The notes under the pieces are model-generated. The model was not told the DNA's origin. It saw nothing but the letters and a program-made list of their open reading frames with translations, and ran no database searches. The translations under genes and the position numbers were made by a program. DNA of 22,082 nucleotides from a virus: positions 1-22,082 of IMG/VR virus record IMGVR_UViG_3300037427_003057, one strand, 5' to 3'. Below, piece after piece: positions 201 through 18,431 of this stretch (positions are counted from its first letter, which is position 1; the number at the start of each line of letters is the position of its first letter).

Positions 201-3200
201 ATGGCACTAGATCCGAAAATCGCTTCTCTTAAGGCTGCAGGAACATATAGGTTTGAATTTGATAAAAGTCAAGTCGTAAGTATCCCTGCAAATCAAACAC
301 GACTTATTGTCGGTTTTTCTAAGACAGGCCCGTTTAATACACCAGTCTTTGTTCCTGATACTGCTTTCTTTAAGCAAGTATACGGTGATATAGATAGAAA
401 TTTAGAAAGAAAAGATTCTTTCTTCCATAGAAGCTGTTTGGCTGCATTGGAAAGAGGACCTATTCTTGCACTTAACTTATTAAGCTTAGATAAAGATGAT
501 AAAGTTAGAGCAAATAGGTTTGCTACATCTGCAACACCTGAAGCTCAAAAGAACGAAGGAGCAGACTATGAATACCAAAAGTTTTATAATAGAGATAAAT
601 TCTTTTACCCATCAACAACAGACTTTTTAACTAATGTTGGTGCTGATACAGATAGCTTACAATCAACATCTGTAAATGATTTATTAGATGTTACCAATTT
701 AGGACAAAATCCTATTTCTGTAATTGTTAAGAAATCTGCACCTACAAATGTTTTAGCCTTCCAAGTTACTGTTGAAGAATGGTACGGTGCTGCAAATGTA
801 CCAGGATATTTAAATAAAGATAGTTTAATTTCTGACTTCTTTGTAGATATTTTTGTACTTGAAGGAAACTTCGGAGGAGACTTTACTACAACTACTCCTT
901 ATTCAAGATTTAATGCAGATCCAACATTCCAAAAGTATTTTGATCCAACACAAGGAATTAAGAGAAAGAAATTTACTGCTGATAGTACAGATACATTATT
1001 ACAAGAATTCTTTAATGAATCAGAAGTAAATTTAAGAGCAACATATACTGCTTGTTTACTTCCTGATTTTGTTGATTTATTAGGTAACAACCTTTTTGTT
1101 GAAAAATTAGTTAATGCTGATACTGCTTCAACTGGTTTATTCGTTACAGTAAATGAAGATTTATTTAGTGGAGATATTTTAATAGATGGTGTACCTGGTG
1201 GAATTGATATGATAGGACATAATCTTGAAGCTGCCGCTGCGTTTGGTTCACAGGATGATGTTAACTTCTTATCATATAGTGGTTCTATTGTTTCTGATTT
1301 AAATTACTGTAGAGCATTTGATCCTGGAACTGTAGTAACTAACACAGGAAATCCAATAACTGTATCTACACCTACTGCTGGTGGAATACAATTACAAATC
1401 ACTGGAGCTATTGGAGATCCTCTATGGGATGCATTAGGTGCAATGACTGCAAATACTGCAACTTCAGTAGGATCATTTATATTAGATCCAGTAACAAATG
1501 AATTTGTACCAGTAACATCTGTACAAACTGTAGGTAGTACTGTAACCGTATTATTATCAGATGTAGGAACAACAGTAGCAGGTAACTTTGTAATAGGTTT
1601 AGCTGGTAGTTATACAATCCTTAATGAAAGTGATATTAATTTTGTATCAGATGAATTTGCTGCCAGTGGAGCCGCAGGAATTATAGGTTCTTATGGATCT
1701 ACAGTTATGAAGCAATTTTCTAATGGAGTATTAACTGATGGTGATGAAGCTGTTTATGTAGATGCAGGAATTCAATATACTTCTTATTTAGTAATGAATG
1801 CTGTAGATTATGGATTTGTTCATGCAGGAGATCCTAATCTTGCAGGAACTATTATTCCAATTTCAGATCCAGCTTATTTCTTACCTTCAGTAAGAATAAC
1901 ACCTTACCAGGAAGATGCATATATTAATTTAACATCACATGCTGAATTTACTTTAGATGGAACAGGATTATTCCTTAAGTCTGATGGTTCAACATATGCT
2001 GCTGCAAATTGTTTAAATGTACAAACTTTAAAAGGTGCTAATAATTTAACAGTTGATATTATTGGTGATTCATTAAATGAACCAACATTAAAGCCTAATG
2101 AAATATTAGTTGCAACAACTTCACCAGAAGCTGCTGATTTTAAAGTTGGTAATTATTTAGTTCATACAAGTGGAACTGCTACAGGTACTCCTTCTAGATT
2201 AACAAGAATGAATATAGTAGAAGGTGGATTAACACCAACAGAATATCCAATTATTCCTGCAGGAACTACTGCAATAAAAATTACATGCCAATCTGAAGTT
2301 GAAGTAAATGTTGTAACTGGACCACCTGCACAAAGAAAAGTAGAATTATACTACCCAATTGATTCTTGGATTGATTATTTAAATATTTTTGAACTTCCAG
2401 GTTTTGATTTAATTGCAACAAAACATGTACCTGATGGTTCAAATTCTAGACAGAATAAATGTTTAAGCCCAATTTTAGGTGGAACTAATTTATATAAAGC
2501 TTTAACTGATAGAGAAACTATTAACTTCCGTTATGTAGTAGATACTTATGGAAATGGAATTGAAGCAAATTGTAAAGCTATTTATACTAATTTATGTATG
2601 AGTAGAAAAAATGCATTTGCAATAGTTAACTCGCCATCAGCTAAGGACTTTAAGAAAAATACAGATCCAAGCTTTACTGATGCAACTGGGGGATTATCCT
2701 CTAAGTTTATATCGGAAGGTGGAAATCTTGCATTGAATCCAACAATTAGATTCTCATTACCTGCTGCAACTAGCGGTGGATCTTGGGGAGGATATTATTA
2801 TCCATTCTTAACAGTTAGAGATTTAGGTAAGAATATAAATGTACCACCAGCTGCTTATGTATCTAATAACTTTATTCTTAAATATGAAAACGCATTACCT
2901 TGGTCAATCGTGGCAGGTGTAAGACGTGGAGTAATAGGTGGAAATGGAGTTGTAGGTTTAGAATTAAATCTAGATCAAGATGACAGATATTATTTAGAGC
3001 CATTCGGACTTAATCCGATTGTATTCCAAAGTGGAACAGGACCAACTATCTTTGCAAATAAAACTGCACAGCAAGTTCCGAAATCTGCTTTAAGTTCAAT
3101 TAATGTTAGAGAGGTTGTAATTTATATCCAAGATGGTATTGAAGCAATACTTAAAAACTACCTATTTGAATTTAATACAGCTCAGACTAGGTTAGAAATT

Positions 3201-3419
3201 AAAACATTAGCTGATAACTTCTTAGCAACGGTTCAAAATGATGATGGTGTATATGATTATAGAAATATAATGGATGAAACTAATAATACACCAGAAGTGA
3301 TTGATCAAAATGTAGGTATCTTAGATACATATATTGAACCAGTAAGAGGAATGGAAATTCTTGTACAAAGAACAACAATTTTAAGAACTGGAGCAATTAG
3401 TACAGGAAACTTCCAATAA
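201..3419 (+). CDS. 18: Contractile tail sheath protein (T4 gp18-like), enlarged
   Basis: Predicted tail sheath subunit, which polymerises around the tail tube and contracts to drive it through the host envelope. The N-terminus (residues 1-70: a beta-rich opening with a VGFSKTGPFNTPV stretch) and the C-terminal 170 residues (an NFILKYENALPWSIVAG block, VREVVIYIQDGIEAILKNYLFEFN, and a closing strand near GMEILVQRTTILRTG) are typical of myophage sheaths. At 1072 residues it is much longer than T4 gp18 (659). The extra length seems to lie in the middle; residues about 373-480 are Gly/Thr/Val rich and look like an added beta domain on the outer surface. The tube gene follows 40 nt downstream, as in T4 (18-19). 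ATG at 201 is the first start after the upstream stop and follows an A-rich leader. Confidence 0.93.
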   Translation: MALDPKIASLKAAGTYRFEFDKSQVVSIPANQTRLIVGFSKTGPFNTPVFVPDTAFFKQVYGDIDRNLERKDSFFHRSCLAALERGPILALNLLSLDKDDKVRANRFATSATPEAQKNEGADYEYQKFYNRDKFFYPSTTDFLTNVGADTDSLQSTSVNDLLDVTNLGQNPISVIVKKSAPTNVLAFQVTVEEWYGAANVPGYLNKDSLISDFFVDIFVLEGNFGGDFTTTTPYSRFNADPTFQKYFDPTQGIKRKKFTADSTDTLLQEFFNESEVNLRATYTACLLPDFVDLLGNNLFVEKLVNADTASTGLFVTVNEDLFSGDILIDGVPGGIDMIGHNLEAAAAFGSQDDVNFLSYSGSIVSDLNYCRAFDPGTVVTNTGNPITVSTPTAGGIQLQITGAIGDPLWDALGAMTANTATSVGSFILDPVTNEFVPVTSVQTVGSTVTVLLSDVGTTVAGNFVIGLAGSYTILNESDINFVSDEFAASGAAGIIGSYGSTVMKQFSNGVLTDGDEAVYVDAGIQYTSYLVMNAVDYGFVHAGDPNLAGTIIPISDPAYFLPSVRITPYQEDAYINLTSHAEFTLDGTGLFLKSDGSTYAAANCLNVQTLKGANNLTVDIIGDSLNEPTLKPNEILVATTSPEAADFKVGNYLVHTSGTATGTPSRLTRMNIVEGGLTPTEYPIIPAGTTAIKITCQSEVEVNVVTGPPAQRKVELYYPIDSWIDYLNIFELPGFDLIATKHVPDGSNSRQNKCLSPILGGTNLYKALTDRETINFRYVVDTYGNGIEANCKAIYTNLCMSRKNAFAIVNSPSAKDFKKNTDPSFTDATGGLSSKFISEGGNLALNPTIRFSLPAATSGGSWGGYYYPFLTVRDLGKNINVPPAAYVSNNFILKYENALPWSIVAGVRRGVIGGNGVVGLELNLDQDDRYYLEPFGLNPIVFQSGTGPTIFANKTAQQVPKSALSSINVREVVIYIQDGIEAILKNYLFEFNTAQTRLEIKTLADNFLATVQNDDGVYDYRNIMDETNNTPEVIDQNVGILDTYIEPVRGMEILVQRTTILRTGAISTGNFQ

Positions 3420-10213: not shown

Positions 10214-10543
10214 ATGATAAAAAGATTAGAAAATTCAACTATACATGATTCAAGGTTTCATGGTCATTACTTTGAAACCACTAAAGAAGATTTAGAAAAA
10301 GTATGTGGAAAAGTAATGTATTATGATAATGATATAAATGAAAAAACTCAGAATGAATGGGAAATGGTTACTGAAGATGGTACTCCTTTTACTATTTATG
10401 ATTATAAAGAATATCGAGATTATGAAGATTATGAAAAGATTGAGTGGCATATAGGAACAGAAAATAGGTTTGGTTCTAAAAAAGCTTATGAGGCAATCAA
10501 AAGAGCATTTCATTTACATCCTAAAATTACTTACAATATATAA
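10214..10543 (+). CDS. Hypothetical phage protein (109 residues)
   Basis: Not identified. The 109-residue product is charged and aromatic, with TPFTIYDYKEYRDYEDYEK and WHIGTENRFGSKKAYEAIKRA. The pattern of a small alpha/beta protein with a Trp-His-Ile-Gly turn is one I associate with small phage proteins of unknown role, but no catalytic motif is visible. Codon use matches neighbours and the start follows an AT-rich leader. The end of the gene overlaps the probable tmRNA promoter. Confidence 0.7.
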   Translation: MIKRLENSTIHDSRFHGHYFETTKEDLEKVCGKVMYYDNDINEKTQNEWEMVTEDGTPFTIYDYKEYRDYEDYEKIEWHIGTENRFGSKKAYEAIKRAFHLHPKITYNI

Positions 10544-10547
10544 TACT

Positions 10548-10555
10548 GATCTTTG
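10548..10555 (+). promoter_or_regulatory. Bacteroidota-type -7 element of the tmRNA promoter
   Basis: GATCTTTG matches the Bacteroidota primary-sigma -7 consensus TAnnTTTG at all fixed positions but the first. Its last base is 8 nt before the predicted first base of the tmRNA (10563), the right distance. No clear TTG at -33 is seen. This suggests the host's housekeeping sigma may transcribe the tmRNA. Confidence 0.45.
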
Positions 10556-10562
10556 AAATTAT

Positions 10563-10915
10563 GGGGGTGCCTGGCTTTGACATTTTGATTGAAGTTTTAA
10601 ACACAGCACTGGGTGATGACCTACATCAACGCTTAAGTGGCAACACTGAGCTCGCGATGGCTGCCTAAGAGGTAAGTAACGCACGTCACCGTTCCGAGTA
10701 TACTTGTAGGAATTGATTGGGCTTTAATTAGTACCAGGACGTAAAAGGAAGTAGAACGTGTGAAAGGATATTAATAACTAACTCCGTGAACCACACCACC
10801 CAAAGAGTTCTAACAGTTGTTATTCATTTTGGAAGTTTAAGAAAACTTATCCTAAGCTGTAAAAATGTTTACTATGAATACTTAATGGACGTGGGTTCGA
10901 TTCCCACCACCTCCA
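10563..10915 (+). ncRNA. ssrA: tmRNA (transfer-messenger RNA)
   Basis: A complete one-piece tmRNA of about 353 nt. The 5' GGGGGTG (10563-10569) pairs with the 3' CACCTCC (10908-10914) as a 7-bp acceptor stem with one G-U pair, and GGCTTTGAC near 10573 is the usual tmRNA D-like region. At the 3' end GTGGG-TTCGATT-CCCAC (10891-10907) is a perfect T arm. The discriminator is A10915; the genome reads CA next, so CCA is not fully encoded and must be added. A hairpin (TGATG at 10614-10618 with CATCA at 10624-10628) sits just before the tag frame. tmRNA charged with Ala enters stalled ribosomes with SmpB, adds a degradation tag and frees the ribosome. No smpB is in this window, so host SmpB is assumed. 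Confidence 0.95.
10639..10668 (+). other. tmRNA tag reading frame (GNTELAMAA)
   Basis: Inside the tmRNA, GGC at 10639 is the likely resume codon, giving G-N-T-E-L-A-M-A-A and a TAA stop at 10666-10668. Bacteroidota tags also begin with Gly and end in Ala-(Leu/Met)-Ala-Ala, which supports this frame. The alternative frame one base later (GCA first) gives a longer peptide ending in basic residues and is unlike any known tag. Confidence 0.85.
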
Positions 10916-10928
10916 CAAAATAAAAAAT

Positions 10929-11087
10929 ATGAATATATTAGAAACACTCTTAATACTCCTTTGCTTACCAATATCTTTTTTATTTCATTTAGTCGTTTAT
11001 GAAAATCACTGGGAGCAAAAACCTTTAACTAGAATCATACTAGGATTAGTCTTAGTAGCCTTACCTTTTATTTTAATATTATCATGA
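10929..11087 (+). CDS. Small two-helix membrane protein (52 residues)
   Basis: A short ORF starting 13 nt after the tmRNA 3' end and sharing ATGA with the next start codon (11084). The product opens MNILETLLILLCLPISF, has a short charged stretch around YENHWEQKPLTR, and then a second hydrophobic run (IILGLVLVALPFILIL). It thus looks like a two-pass inner-membrane protein with a short loop. The four-base stop/start overlap with the next gene argues that it is a real, translated gene. No family recognised; small phage membrane proteins of this kind include lysis and superinfection-control factors, but nothing here proves either. Confidence 0.6.
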   Translation: MNILETLLILLCLPISFLFHLVVYENHWEQKPLTRIILGLVLVALPFILILS

Positions 11088-11269
11088 AACAAGATTATGA
11101 ATTTGTATACCGAGTATTGACTAATAAAAAGAATACTCGTAAACATTATCCAGCATTAACAACATTATTAGATTTATTTAAATCTAAATGGAAAGAAAAT
11201 AAAGACACAAGATTATATAAAGTTTATTTACGATCTCTTCAAACTGCTTTAAGAGTTAGTATATTTTAA
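11084..11269 (+). CDS. Hypothetical small basic protein (61 residues)
   Basis: Not identified. The 61-residue product is Lys/Arg/Tyr rich, probably all helical, with no metal-binding or catalytic motif. It is coupled to the preceding membrane protein gene by an ATGA overlap and ends 36 nt before the topoisomerase start, a gap holding the CATATAAAAATAAA element. Confidence 0.6.
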   Translation: MKQDYEFVYRVLTNKKNTRKHYPALTTLLDLFKSKWKENKDTRLYKVYLRSLQTALRVSIF

Positions 11270-11305: not shown

Positions 11306-13180
11306 ATGGCAGTAAATATTGAAAAGAAATATCAAAAGTTAACAGATACGGAACATGTTCTGTTAAGACCTGGTATGTATGTAGGATCTATTAAGCCATA
11401 TACTGAAGAAGTATTTTTACCTATTAAAGGAAAGGATCAATTTCAATTAACAGAAGTAACTTATAATCCAGGGTTCTTAAAACTATTTGATGAAATAGTT
11501 TCTAACTCTGTTGATGAACATAAAAGAAATCCTAAATTAAATAAAGTTAAAGTAGAAATTAATCAAGAAACTGGATTAATATCTATATGGGATAATGGAG
11601 GTATACCTGTAGAGGTTCATAAAGAATATGATGAATGGGTACCTGAGATGATATTTTCTAACCTTAAAACAGGAAGTAATTTTGATGATAGTGAAGATCG
11701 TATTGTTGTAGGAACTAACGGTGTAGGTAGTACTCTTACAAATATCTTCAGTAAAAAGTTTACAATACAAACATGTGATGGTAAAAAACAATTTAATCAA
11801 ACTTTTACTAATAACATGTCTGATAGGACCAAGCCAAAAATTACAAGAAAGAAAACTAAACATACAGAGATAACTTATCTAACCGATTTTGAAAGGTTTG
11901 GTTTAAAAGGCATTGATAGGAATCATTATCTAATGATAACAAAAAGGCTTATTGATATTGCTGCATGTAATCCTTCTCTAAAAATATTTTTAAATAATAA
12001 TCCTGTTTCTTTTAGAACATTTAAAGATTATGCAAGTAGGTATGTAACTCCAGTATTCTATGAACAATCAGAACATTGGAAAATAGGTATAGGACATTCT
12101 ACAACTGGCTTTAAGGCTATATCATTTGTTAACTCTGTTGAAACTAAAGATGGCGGTACTCATGTTAATGATATAGACTGGCAAATAACTTCATTTCTTA
12201 GAGAAAAGATAAAAAGAAAATATAGAGTTGATGTAAAGCCTTCTGAATTAAGACAGCATTTATATTTGTTTATAAATTGTACAATTATTAATCCTGCATT
12301 CTCATCACAAACAAAAGAAAAGTTAATTACATCACCTAAAGATTTTGGTACTAAACATATTTTAAGTGATAAGGTTTTAAGACAAGTTTTAAATTCTGAA
12401 ATTATACAATCAGTATTAGATTGGATTGAGAGAAAAAAGGATGCTGAGGAAAGAAAGAAATTAAGAAGGCTCAATAAAGGTTTAGATAAAACAAAAGTTT
12501 TAAAATTAATTGATGCAAAGAAAAGAGGTATTAGGGAAAAATGTACCTTGGCTATTTTTGAAGGAGACTCTGCATCATCTGCATTTAGAAGATATAGAGA
12601 ACCTCAATATCAAGGAGCATTTCCATTAAGAGGTAAATTTATTAATGTAAGAGAACTCTCTGCATCTAAAGTTGTACAAAATAAAGAAGTACAATCTTTA
12701 ATGGCTGCTATAGGATTAAAAATAGGCCATGAACCTAAAGATCTAAGATATGGTAAAATTTTACTTTATACTGATGCAGATGTTGATGGTAATTCTATTT
12801 CAGCATTATTAATAAATTTCTTAGGTAAGTATTGGCCAGAATTATTTAGTGAAGGTAGAGTACTTAAAGTAGAAACACCTTTAATGGTTGCAAAGAAAGG
12901 AAATGAATCTTTAAATTTTTATACAGAAGAAGATTATAAAGAATGGGAATCTAAACAGAGAAGTTTAAGTAAATGGTCTATTGAATACAAAAAAGGTTTA
13001 GCTGCACTAGAAGATGCAGAATACAAAGAGATCATTAGAAGCCCGAAAACATTCATCTTAACTAAGGATAAAGAATTTAACAGTACATTAGATATATGGT
13101 TTTCTAAGAACTCTGAACCTCGTAAAAGAAAGATATTAGGTCAAGCCGTAGAAATTAAAAACAAAAAATCATTATTTTAA
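11306..13180 (+). CDS. 39: DNA topoisomerase II large subunit (T4 gp39+gp60 type)
   Basis: ATPase and Toprim subunit of a T4-type type II topoisomerase, which relaxes and untangles phage DNA in replication. The 624-residue protein carries the GHKL ATPase at the N-terminus: the N-box near residues 62-73 (EIVSNSVDEHK), DNGG near 96, and the lid GTNGVGSTLTN near 137. A transducer region follows, then Toprim motifs EGDSASSAF near 419 and DADVDG near 490. T4 splits this into genes 39 and 60; here both parts are one uninterrupted gene, the ancestral form. The stop codon overlaps the medium-subunit start by one base (TAATG), so the two are translationally coupled. Confidence 0.95.
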   Translation: MAVNIEKKYQKLTDTEHVLLRPGMYVGSIKPYTEEVFLPIKGKDQFQLTEVTYNPGFLKLFDEIVSNSVDEHKRNPKLNKVKVEINQETGLISIWDNGGIPVEVHKEYDEWVPEMIFSNLKTGSNFDDSEDRIVVGTNGVGSTLTNIFSKKFTIQTCDGKKQFNQTFTNNMSDRTKPKITRKKTKHTEITYLTDFERFGLKGIDRNHYLMITKRLIDIAACNPSLKIFLNNNPVSFRTFKDYASRYVTPVFYEQSEHWKIGIGHSTTGFKAISFVNSVETKDGGTHVNDIDWQITSFLREKIKRKYRVDVKPSELRQHLYLFINCTIINPAFSSQTKEKLITSPKDFGTKHILSDKVLRQVLNSEIIQSVLDWIERKKDAEERKKLRRLNKGLDKTKVLKLIDAKKRGIREKCTLAIFEGDSASSAFRRYREPQYQGAFPLRGKFINVRELSASKVVQNKEVQSLMAAIGLKIGHEPKDLRYGKILLYTDADVDGNSISALLINFLGKYWPELFSEGRVLKVETPLMVAKKGNESLNFYTEEDYKEWESKQRSLSKWSIEYKKGLAALEDAEYKEIIRSPKTFILTKDKEFNSTLDIWFSKNSEPRKRKILGQAVEIKNKKSLF

Positions 13181-17219: not shown

Positions 17220-18431
17220 GTGTTGAAATATCTAAAACTTTTTGAACAATTTTTAACAGAAAAGAAACCTAAGGGAGCTCCTGACTTCCATCATTCTGAT
17301 GCACCTGATGCTGAAGGTCGTTTTAGAGATTTAAGTCCTAAGAAATTAGCCGCATGGTTAATTAAAACCAGAAAAAAGGATTTAAAAAGAATTAGCGGTT
17401 CTTTAACTCAGCAGGTGGTATTTAATAGAAAGAGTGATCCTAAATATGCTGATAAGATGGAAAAGACCAGAATTGAAGTATATAAACAATTAGGTAGAAA
17501 GGATTTATTAGAAGAGTCGGTTAATAATGAAAATGGTTTAGGTAAAGTTTATTTAGCTTTTAGAGAAGACAGCGGTCAGAGATGGTGGACATATAAAGGT
17601 TTTGCTGGAAATAAGTTTTTTAAACAATTACATGAAAACAACTTAGATGATATTGATATTAATCCTGATTACCCAGTTTTAACATATCATACAGATACTG
17701 TTAATAAACTAATAAAAGCTGGTAAGATTAAAAAAGAAAATGTTTATAATCATCCAGATCATATTTCAAAATCTGGATCTAAGGAAGAATTTCATAAACT
17801 TGTTGGAGAAGATGAAAATATACCTAAGACTGTTTATTCTAAAAATGATGCCTTAGAAAATTTAACCTTTCCTATTATTGCAAAACCTGCAAGAGGTCAT
17901 AGTGGAGAAGGTATACAAATTATTGAAAAACCAGATTTAATGGAAGATGTAGATGAAAAGATATTCGATACATTTTCTGAATATATTGATAAAGCCGAAG
18001 AACATAGATTTATAAACTTTAAAGGAAAGCCAATTTTTTGGATGGAGAGAACTCCTTTGAATGAAAAAGCTAAAAGTGGTAAAGGTACTGCTAAAGAAGC
18101 TATGGAATTCGGATATGCTAAAAGAGATTTAAAAGATTTACCTAAAGATTATAAAAAAGTATTAGAAAAGTTCTGTAAGATTTATGAAGATTTGCCTTAT
18201 ATGTGTTTTGATGTAATGAAAGGCAAGAATGGAAAAGTTTACATTATTGAATCTAATGCTCAACCTGGAGTACCTTTTGATTCTACTATTGAAGCTTATA
18301 AACATATCTATGAAGATTTTTATAAGAAACCTCTCGATGAAGAAAGTTTAACCAAATTAAATGAATATGCTAAAACTATGATTGAAAAGACCCTCAAGAA
18401 AGATGGGGGAAAAAGATTTTCAATTAAATAG
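17220..18431 (+). CDS. ATP-grasp protein with capsid-targeting-like N-terminus
   Basis: A 403-residue, three-part protein. Residues 1-14 (KYLKLFEQFLTE) look like the capsid-targeting peptide of T4 internal proteins, ending in the Leu-x-Glu pattern cut by the prohead protease. Residues about 15-95 form a basic, helical module (DLSPKKLAAWLIKTR, RISGSLTQQVVFNRK). Residues about 105-385 are an ATP-grasp fold: IAKPARGHSGEG (K222) and, for metal binding, D331 in CFDVMKG with E344 and N346 in IIESNAQPG. ATP-grasp enzymes join a carboxylate to an amine or thiol; the substrate is unknown. No ATG fits: the frame opens with GTG (17220) then TTG (17223), either of which could start; TTG would give a protein opening MKYLKLFEQ. 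Confidence 0.78.
   Translation: MLKYLKLFEQFLTEKKPKGAPDFHHSDAPDAEGRFRDLSPKKLAAWLIKTRKKDLKRISGSLTQQVVFNRKSDPKYADKMEKTRIEVYKQLGRKDLLEESVNNENGLGKVYLAFREDSGQRWWTYKGFAGNKFFKQLHENNLDDIDINPDYPVLTYHTDTVNKLIKAGKIKKENVYNHPDHISKSGSKEEFHKLVGEDENIPKTVYSKNDALENLTFPIIAKPARGHSGEGIQIIEKPDLMEDVDEKIFDTFSEYIDKAEEHRFINFKGKPIFWMERTPLNEKAKSGKGTAKEAMEFGYAKRDLKDLPKDYKKVLEKFCKIYEDLPYMCFDVMKGKNGKVYIIESNAQPGVPFDSTIEAYKHIYEDFYKKPLDEESLTKLNEYAKTMIEKTLKKDGGKRFSIK

Follow-up and report, generated by a model that had tools for sequence, protein, structure and literature searches.

A phage tmRNA lineage with a compact PK1 region and a boxA-like leader

Does the complete tmRNA gene lying among the genes of a viral contig belong to the phage, is it maintained as a working tmRNA, and what might a phage gain from it? 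To our knowledge, phage tmRNAs have often been listed but hardly studied for selection or mechanism. The locus studied here lies in IMGVR_UViG_3300037427_003057, a linear viral fragment of 22,082 bases; this whole stretch of DNA is called the window. A preliminary description of the window had considered tmRNAs uncommon in phages. This was overstated: tmRNAs were counted in 402 of 18,146 phage genomes in 2021, about 2% (PMC9004378), huge phages carry them with SmpB (PMC7162821), mycobacteriophages and Bacillus phage G carry ssrA (PMC4131195), and Cellulophaga phage Calle has one (PMC8776804).

The genes of the window include those for a tail sheath, a tail tube-like protein, a split topoisomerase II, thymidylate synthase and a sigma factor. 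When named genomes were ranked by tail sheath, the nearest was the 462-kb megaphage LR756500 (46.6%), followed by other megaphages of 635-735 kb and then by Flavobacterium phage MaF61 and Tenacibaculum phages pT24, PTm1 and PTm5. The topoisomerase has 55-56% identity to its nearest named genomes, which are metagenomic megaphages. Calling the phage T4-like is therefore correct in a broad sense, given the split topoisomerase II and the tail sheath, but its nearest named genomes are metagenomic megaphages of 462-642 kb and then Flavobacterium and Tenacibaculum phages. Elsewhere in the window, an ATP-grasp-like protein (YheC/D family, weak match) is encoded at 17220-18431 within the phage nucleotide-metabolism block. 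The motif (CA)TATAAAAATAAA recurs 20-30 nt 5' of the starts of at least four ORFs (window 5838, 11306, 14558, 15516) and may serve the phage as a promoter or as a signal for translation. The sequence TTCTTTRA occurs 18 times in window 1-22082, compared with 9.1 copies expected and a number that none of 100 shuffles reached; its copies are mostly intragenic.

ARAGORN reported a single tmRNA at 10563-10916 on the plus strand, with the tag GNTELAMAA*. The Rfam family RF00023, the sole family matching in the window, covers 10563-10918 and model positions 1-374 in full, with a score of 71.4 bits (gathering 47) and an E value of 3.1e-26. Thus, both tools that the preliminary description had named as checks recover a complete one-piece tmRNA, and its claim of a real, complete tmRNA in a phage was borne out by their agreement and by a contig that is that of a myovirus. 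The features of the locus, all on the plus strand, are as follows.

201 to 3419, plus strand: tail sheath (phrog_34521, E 8e-120), which marks a contractile-tailed phage
10548 to 10562, plus strand: boxA-like leader GATCTTTGAAATTAT, one mismatch to the clade consensus GTTCWTTGAAWWWWT, abutting the tmRNA; from motif counts
10563 to 10915, plus strand: one-piece tmRNA gene (ssrA) with A73 at 10915; from ARAGORN, Rfam and sequence reading
10563 to 10569, plus strand: 5' strand of the acceptor stem, GGGGGTG, pairing with 10908-10914 (7/7)
10611 to 10628, plus strand: compact PK1 element GGGTGATGACCTACATCA; from the phage tmRNA alignment
10633 to 10636, plus strand: TTAA tetramer at the frame-setting position, -6 to -3 of the resume codon; from sequence and alignment
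10639 to 10668, plus strand: tag frame GNTELAMAA with TAA stop; from ARAGORN
10683 to 10742, plus strand: stem-loop 3' of the tag (10683-10687/10738-10742 and 10691-10695/10709-10713); from covariation in 27 relatives
10891 to 10907, plus strand: T arm GUGGG-UUCGAUU-CCCAC; from sequence and Rfam
11306 to 13180, plus strand: DNA topoisomerase II large subunit (phrog_543, E 2e-187), the conserved neighbour downstream of the tmRNA

The gene is flanked by same-strand ORFs at 10214-10543 and 11084-11269, and an unlisted ORF of less than 60 aa possibly begins at about 10931, 3' of the tmRNA. Since position 10915 is the discriminator A73, the end given in the preliminary description is the mature end without an encoded CCA. 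The third acceptor pair is G3-U70 (G10565/U10912), the alanine identity pair. The resume codon, GGC, lies at 10639, and the frame closes with TAA at 10666-10668; at the frame-setting tetramer position before the resume codon, AUAG and AUAA are reported to be preferred (PMC4236655). Membership in RF00023 was indicated by the full-model match above gathering, by G3-U70 together with the T arm, and by a resume codon with a stop-terminated tag. As to helix 5 and PK2-PK4, the analysis showed a covarying stem-loop after the tag and did not bring out distinct PK2-PK4 elements.

Relatives were fetched with the topoisomerase as bait, which yielded 54 viral loci. A tmRNA was found 5' of the topoisomerase gene, mostly in close proximity to it, in 23 of the 24 loci with 85-97% topoisomerase identity, 20 of them by ARAGORN and three (L002, L053 and L055) by Rfam; neither ARAGORN nor Rfam found one in the remaining locus, L013. 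The sister clade, with 74-78% topoisomerase identity, had a tmRNA in 7 of 30 loci (L030, L038-L041, L044 and the contig of L043), a count that fragments could make too low. Hence the tmRNA is core in one phage clade and accessory in its sister clade, where incomplete fragments may hide further copies; the 23 of 30 fragments in which no tmRNA was found indicate that some phages can dispense with the gene. In several relatives, the tmRNA is immediately followed by tRNA-Ala(TGC) or heads an array of 22 tRNAs. A search of 50,697 phage records found no DNA relative, near or distant, of the window tmRNA, and the tmRNA of a relative matched these records in T-arm pieces only.

Selection was assessed on 29 distinct sequences of this type of phage tmRNA, and 146 distinct chromosomal tmRNAs, read from Bacteroidota genomes sampled across the phylum and from the order of one Chitinophagia MAG, served for comparison. 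G3-U70 is retained in all 29 phage tmRNAs, and a G-U pair stands there in 143 of the 146 Bacteroidota tmRNAs. Tag codons 6-9 read AMAA in 29/29, with synonymous third-base changes by which Ala6 is encoded through three codons and Ala8 through two; the tag ends with TAA or TAG in every copy. Positions -5/-4 relative to the resume codon hold the dinucleotide UA in 28/29, the exception having TCAAGT. In the stem-loop after the tag, 95.8% of cells were paired among 27 relatives, and two-sided changes affected 7 of 14 pairs. Two-sided changes were counted in 36 cells, where shuffling gave a mean of 10.3, and pairing fell to 33-43% once the partner was shifted by 1-3 columns. The second T-stem pair occurs as TA, AT, CG and GC among 29 relatives. 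Together, the compensatory pair changes and the synonymous tag changes imply that the gene has been selected as a tmRNA, unlike a relic. The tmRNA belongs to the phage and is conserved in the phage lineage.

PK1 is usually thought necessary in a tmRNA. In the phage lineage it takes a compact form, which in the window ends 10 nt 5' of the resume codon. Its core, GGGUGAUGRCC-NN-CAUC, is invariant in the lineage save for one A/G position, and was found in 0 of the 146 sampled Bacteroidota tmRNAs. The tag begins at nt 75-82 in the phage lineage, compared with nt 90-104 in the 146 Bacteroidota tmRNAs apart from six exceptions (two at 82, one at 86 and three at 126 or later, several of them plainly misread tags). 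The earlier start is due to nucleotides missing from PK1, a region that is about 20 nt shorter. The Rfam score of the window tmRNA is 71 bits, compared with about 98-200 bits for Bacteroidota tmRNAs. The element can be drawn as an H-type pseudoknot (S1 GGU/ACC, S2 GAUG/CAUC) or as either of two hairpins, and because it is invariant, covariation cannot separate pseudoknot from hairpin; with such short loops, a fully formed pseudoknot appears doubtful. A functional compact PK1 is nevertheless plausible, since E. coli PK1 is reported to be reducible to a hairpin without loss of tagging (PMC4236655, PMC3968760). How efficiently a tmRNA with so reduced a PK1 would tag is uncertain.

The megaphage LR756500 has the ordinary long form, with its tag at nt 102, which makes the short form a trait of the lineage of the window. 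When whole tmRNAs were placed in a tree, the 21 short-form phages sampled all fell into one clade (support 100/99) with a long stem of 0.57 changes per column. Naming the tmRNA donor from this tree was rejected, because support for the position of the clade within Bacteroidota is weak and there is attraction between several long branches. Judged by sequence, the 29 distinct phage tmRNAs are one short-PK1 lineage, set apart from the Bacteroidota tmRNAs and from the other phage tmRNAs that were fetched.

The stretch that immediately precedes the tmRNA has, in most of the phages, the form GTTCWTTGAAWWWWT, with GTTCWTTGA about 15 nt 5' of the gene. The motif GTTC[AT]TT[GA] was found 10-25 nt 5' of 22 of the 29 phage copies, where shuffling gave a mean of 0.03, and at the same distance from 40 of the 146 chromosomal Bacteroidota tmRNAs (shuffled mean 0.2); among the phage copies it is missing in the group L135/L155/L156/L166, in L139 and in L170. 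Of 11 distinct Bacteroidota genomes for which 350 nt of 16S leader was available, 10 have an extended motif, GTTC[AT]TT[GA][AT], 88-293 nt 5' of 16S, the region in which boxA is located, compared with 0-3% in shuffles. The E. coli boxA consensus of rRNA leaders is GYTCTTTAANA (PMC5725501); the leader of L038, GTTCTTTAACA, fits it in full and the window copy fits with one mismatch. The boxA-like motif also stands 25-26 nt before tRNA-Ser or tRNA-Arg (L030:1844 and 2896, L038:2141 and 2959, L139:7071), where in L030 and L038 it precedes the first tRNA of a second array and in L139 one tRNA. In L101, the upstream neighbour differs and the motif still accompanies the tmRNA. Its presence in Bacteroidota 16S leaders and at phage tRNA arrays makes the motif read as a boxA-like antitermination site. 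The leader thus looks like a boxA-like antitermination element for operons of untranslated RNAs, a processing signal being a possible alternative, and the copies before tRNA genes suggest antitermination of phage tRNA operons generally. A T4 late promoter (TATAAATA) was rejected as a feature of the window tmRNA: it is absent there, and the window has 2 copies compared with 6.4 expected. The same sequence does stand before the tmRNA in L038 and L044.

The tag of the phage tmRNA was compared with those of the 146 chromosomal tmRNAs, of which 57 end in ALAA and 57 (39%) in AMAA. Tags of the form xNx[EQD]xAMAA were carried by six genomes of the sample (G063, G149, G229, G047, G121 and G236), all from the order sample of the Chitinophagia MAG, whose own chromosomal tag is GNTEFAMAA. 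A degenerate tag pattern was found in 44 viral contigs and in one contig among the genomes of 84,980 species, the viral pattern being slightly wider. A phage-private tag was ruled out as a strong claim, as AMAA makes up 39% of Bacteroidota ends and a Chitinophagia chromosome has GNTEFAMAA. The phage tag is of Bacteroidota type and probably of Chitinophagales type, from which a host within Chitinophagales is a reasonable inference. No Shine-Dalgarno motif was found at any of the 23 window ORFs (0/23), and such absence is usual in Bacteroidota. The link to Bacteroidota made in the preliminary description is therefore supported by the tag type, the leader motif, the nearest isolated phages and the lack of Shine-Dalgarno sites. 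The tmRNA of L038-L041 (2156-2537) has an unusually long tag, GEEKSSFTWEDAMAFIGADYAVAA, and those of L106 and L111 have tags of 26 residues. One Bacteroidota genome has a second tmRNA-like match beside its normal one (G133:C1:772761-773172, L329; 49 bits, not called by ARAGORN), which is perhaps a prophage copy.

No SmpB gene was found in the 22-kb window, as the preliminary description had observed, and none in the tested clade fragments of up to 181 kb or in the tag-sharing contigs of up to 198 kb. A full SmpB with the conserved C-terminal region is encoded by the megaphages LR756502, LR745206, LR756504 and LR756501, and SmpB is present in three of the four nearest complete megaphages related by topoisomerase. 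In LR756500, the nearest megaphage when tail sheaths are compared, a tmRNA was found and SmpB was not detected. A scan of viral contigs for SmpB gave six loci, and only the 117-kb contig G240, which is not tied to the clade of the window, also has a tmRNA match (divergent, 33 bits, 22289-22660). Dependence on host SmpB, as proposed in the preliminary description, is thus one of two possibilities, as megaphage relatives show both arrangements, a tmRNA with and without an SmpB of their own. LR756502 (W01) and LR745206 (W02), of 635-642 kb, have a full SmpB, but none of their sequence passes the Rfam cut-off as a tmRNA. Their SmpB may work with the host tmRNA, or their own tmRNA may have diverged too far, as in G240 and in LR756501, which has a 21-bit tmRNA match at 718388-718731.

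Comparison with known tmRNAs places the window copy in a familiar kind. The chromosomal ssrA of Chitinophagales (Bacteroidota) is likewise one-piece, with G3-U70, with the leader GTTCWTTGA in 40/146 Bacteroidota, and with tags (GNTQYAMAA, GNTDYAMAA, GNTEFAMAA) near the phage form (G/D)NxExAMAA; in the phage, however, the normal PK1 is replaced by the compact core, the tag begins earlier and the Rfam score is lower. Huge-phage tmRNAs (PMC7162821; LR756500, LR756504) come from large myoviruses with related sheath and topoisomerase, and that of LR756500 shares the leader motif of the window clade and has the tag GNNAEMRMAA, but differs in its full-length PK1 region. By their descriptions, the marine megaphage Mar_Mega_1 (OU342829; PMC9723777), with one tmRNA and 50 tRNAs, and Cellulophaga phage Calle (PMC8776804), another Bacteroidota phage, with one tmRNA and 20 tRNAs, are comparable, although Calle is a 73-kb phage with a different gene set. 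The tmRNAs of mycobacteriophages and Bacillus phage G (PMC4131195) are, again by description, phage-borne ssrA of other hosts. The T4-like marine Methylophilales phage Melnitz (PMC9004378) also has ssrA within an operon, but its tmRNA is two-piece (permuted), of alphaproteobacterial type and linked to a glutamine riboswitch. Phage tmRNAs of this kind are thus already known, and the compact PK1 and the boxA-like leader are the new features of the lineage of the window.

The reading that we consider probable is that of a functional, Bacteroidota-type phage tmRNA that acts with SmpB in ordinary trans-translation during infection. For this phage tmRNA we infer transcription, charging, use of SmpB, tagging and a benefit, as follows. 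The tmRNA would be transcribed as part of a phage RNA operon that has a host-like boxA at its head; RNase P and the CCA-adding enzyme of the host would process it, and it would be charged with alanine through G3-U70. It would bind SmpB, either that of the host or one encoded by the phage outside the window, enter ribosomes stalled on broken mRNA in infection, switch them to the GNTELAMAA frame and release them. The tagged fragments would then pass to the host protease for ssrA tags, presumably ClpXP; a tag of Chitinophagales type makes delivery to a host protease probable. The likely gain would be ribosomes kept available as mRNA decay and heavy phage translation increase stalling. A more specific joint proposal, which we hold tentatively and at rather less than even confidence, is that a minimal-PK1 tmRNA lineage evolved in phages, long separate from host tmRNAs, and is expressed from phage RNA operons, in which a boxA of the rRNA type, copied from the host, protects untranslated RNA from Rho.

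Other explanations of the locus differ in how they fit these observations. A bacterial tmRNA misassembled into, or contaminating, a phage contig deserves almost no credence: nothing was found in its favour, more than 20 viral contigs from independent assemblies have this tmRNA 5' of the same topoisomerase gene, and the compact form was seen in 0 of 146 sampled Bacteroidota tmRNAs. A passenger or decaying gene acquired from the host would accord with the patchy presence across the sister clade, but is very improbable in view of the compensatory pair changes, the synonymous tag changes and the single well-supported clade of 21 rows on a long stem.

A tmRNA under selection might still serve another purpose. 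If, during infection, host nucleases or defence destroy the tmRNA or tRNAs of the host or leave them in short supply, a diverged phage copy could escape and restore rescue; the strong divergence of the phage tmRNA from host tmRNAs points that way, as do relatives that pair the tmRNA with tRNA-Ala or 22-tRNA arrays, as if rebuilding a translation apparatus. Yet the determinants that are kept are the common ones and no nuclease or target was identified, and we regard such replacement as unlikely, though deserving more weight than any other alternative. Less probable still, with only a slight chance of being right, is a competitor that, owing to its minimal PK1, is poor at tagging while it binds well to SmpB, EF-Tu and ribosomes, damping host trans-translation, for example to shield phage proteins or late mRNAs. 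A shortened PK1 region is unique to the phage lineage among the tmRNAs compared, and in mycobacteriophage DS6A a molecule consisting of the tRNA-like domain alone has been discussed as a possible SmpB-titrating inhibitor (PMC4131195). A decoy, however, would not need the tag frame, stop, resume-site UA and protease-type tag end, which are kept with synonymous changes; this upkeep of the tag makes a competitor role less likely.

Ordinary trans-translation thus remains the reading that we favour. The lineage supplies over 20 diverged copies in which selection is evident, with a leader motif common to phage tmRNAs and host rRNA operons. The SmpB genes of related megaphages correct the idea that such phages must rely on host SmpB. 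A compact PK1 has been retained in nature despite the usual view that a tmRNA requires PK1, which raises the questions of whether a minimal PK1 can tag and whether boxA guards phage tRNA/tmRNA operons from Rho. If the more specific joint proposal is true, the lineage would be a natural test of the minimum PK1 needed in trans-translation, and these would be phages that use boxA for stable RNA genes.
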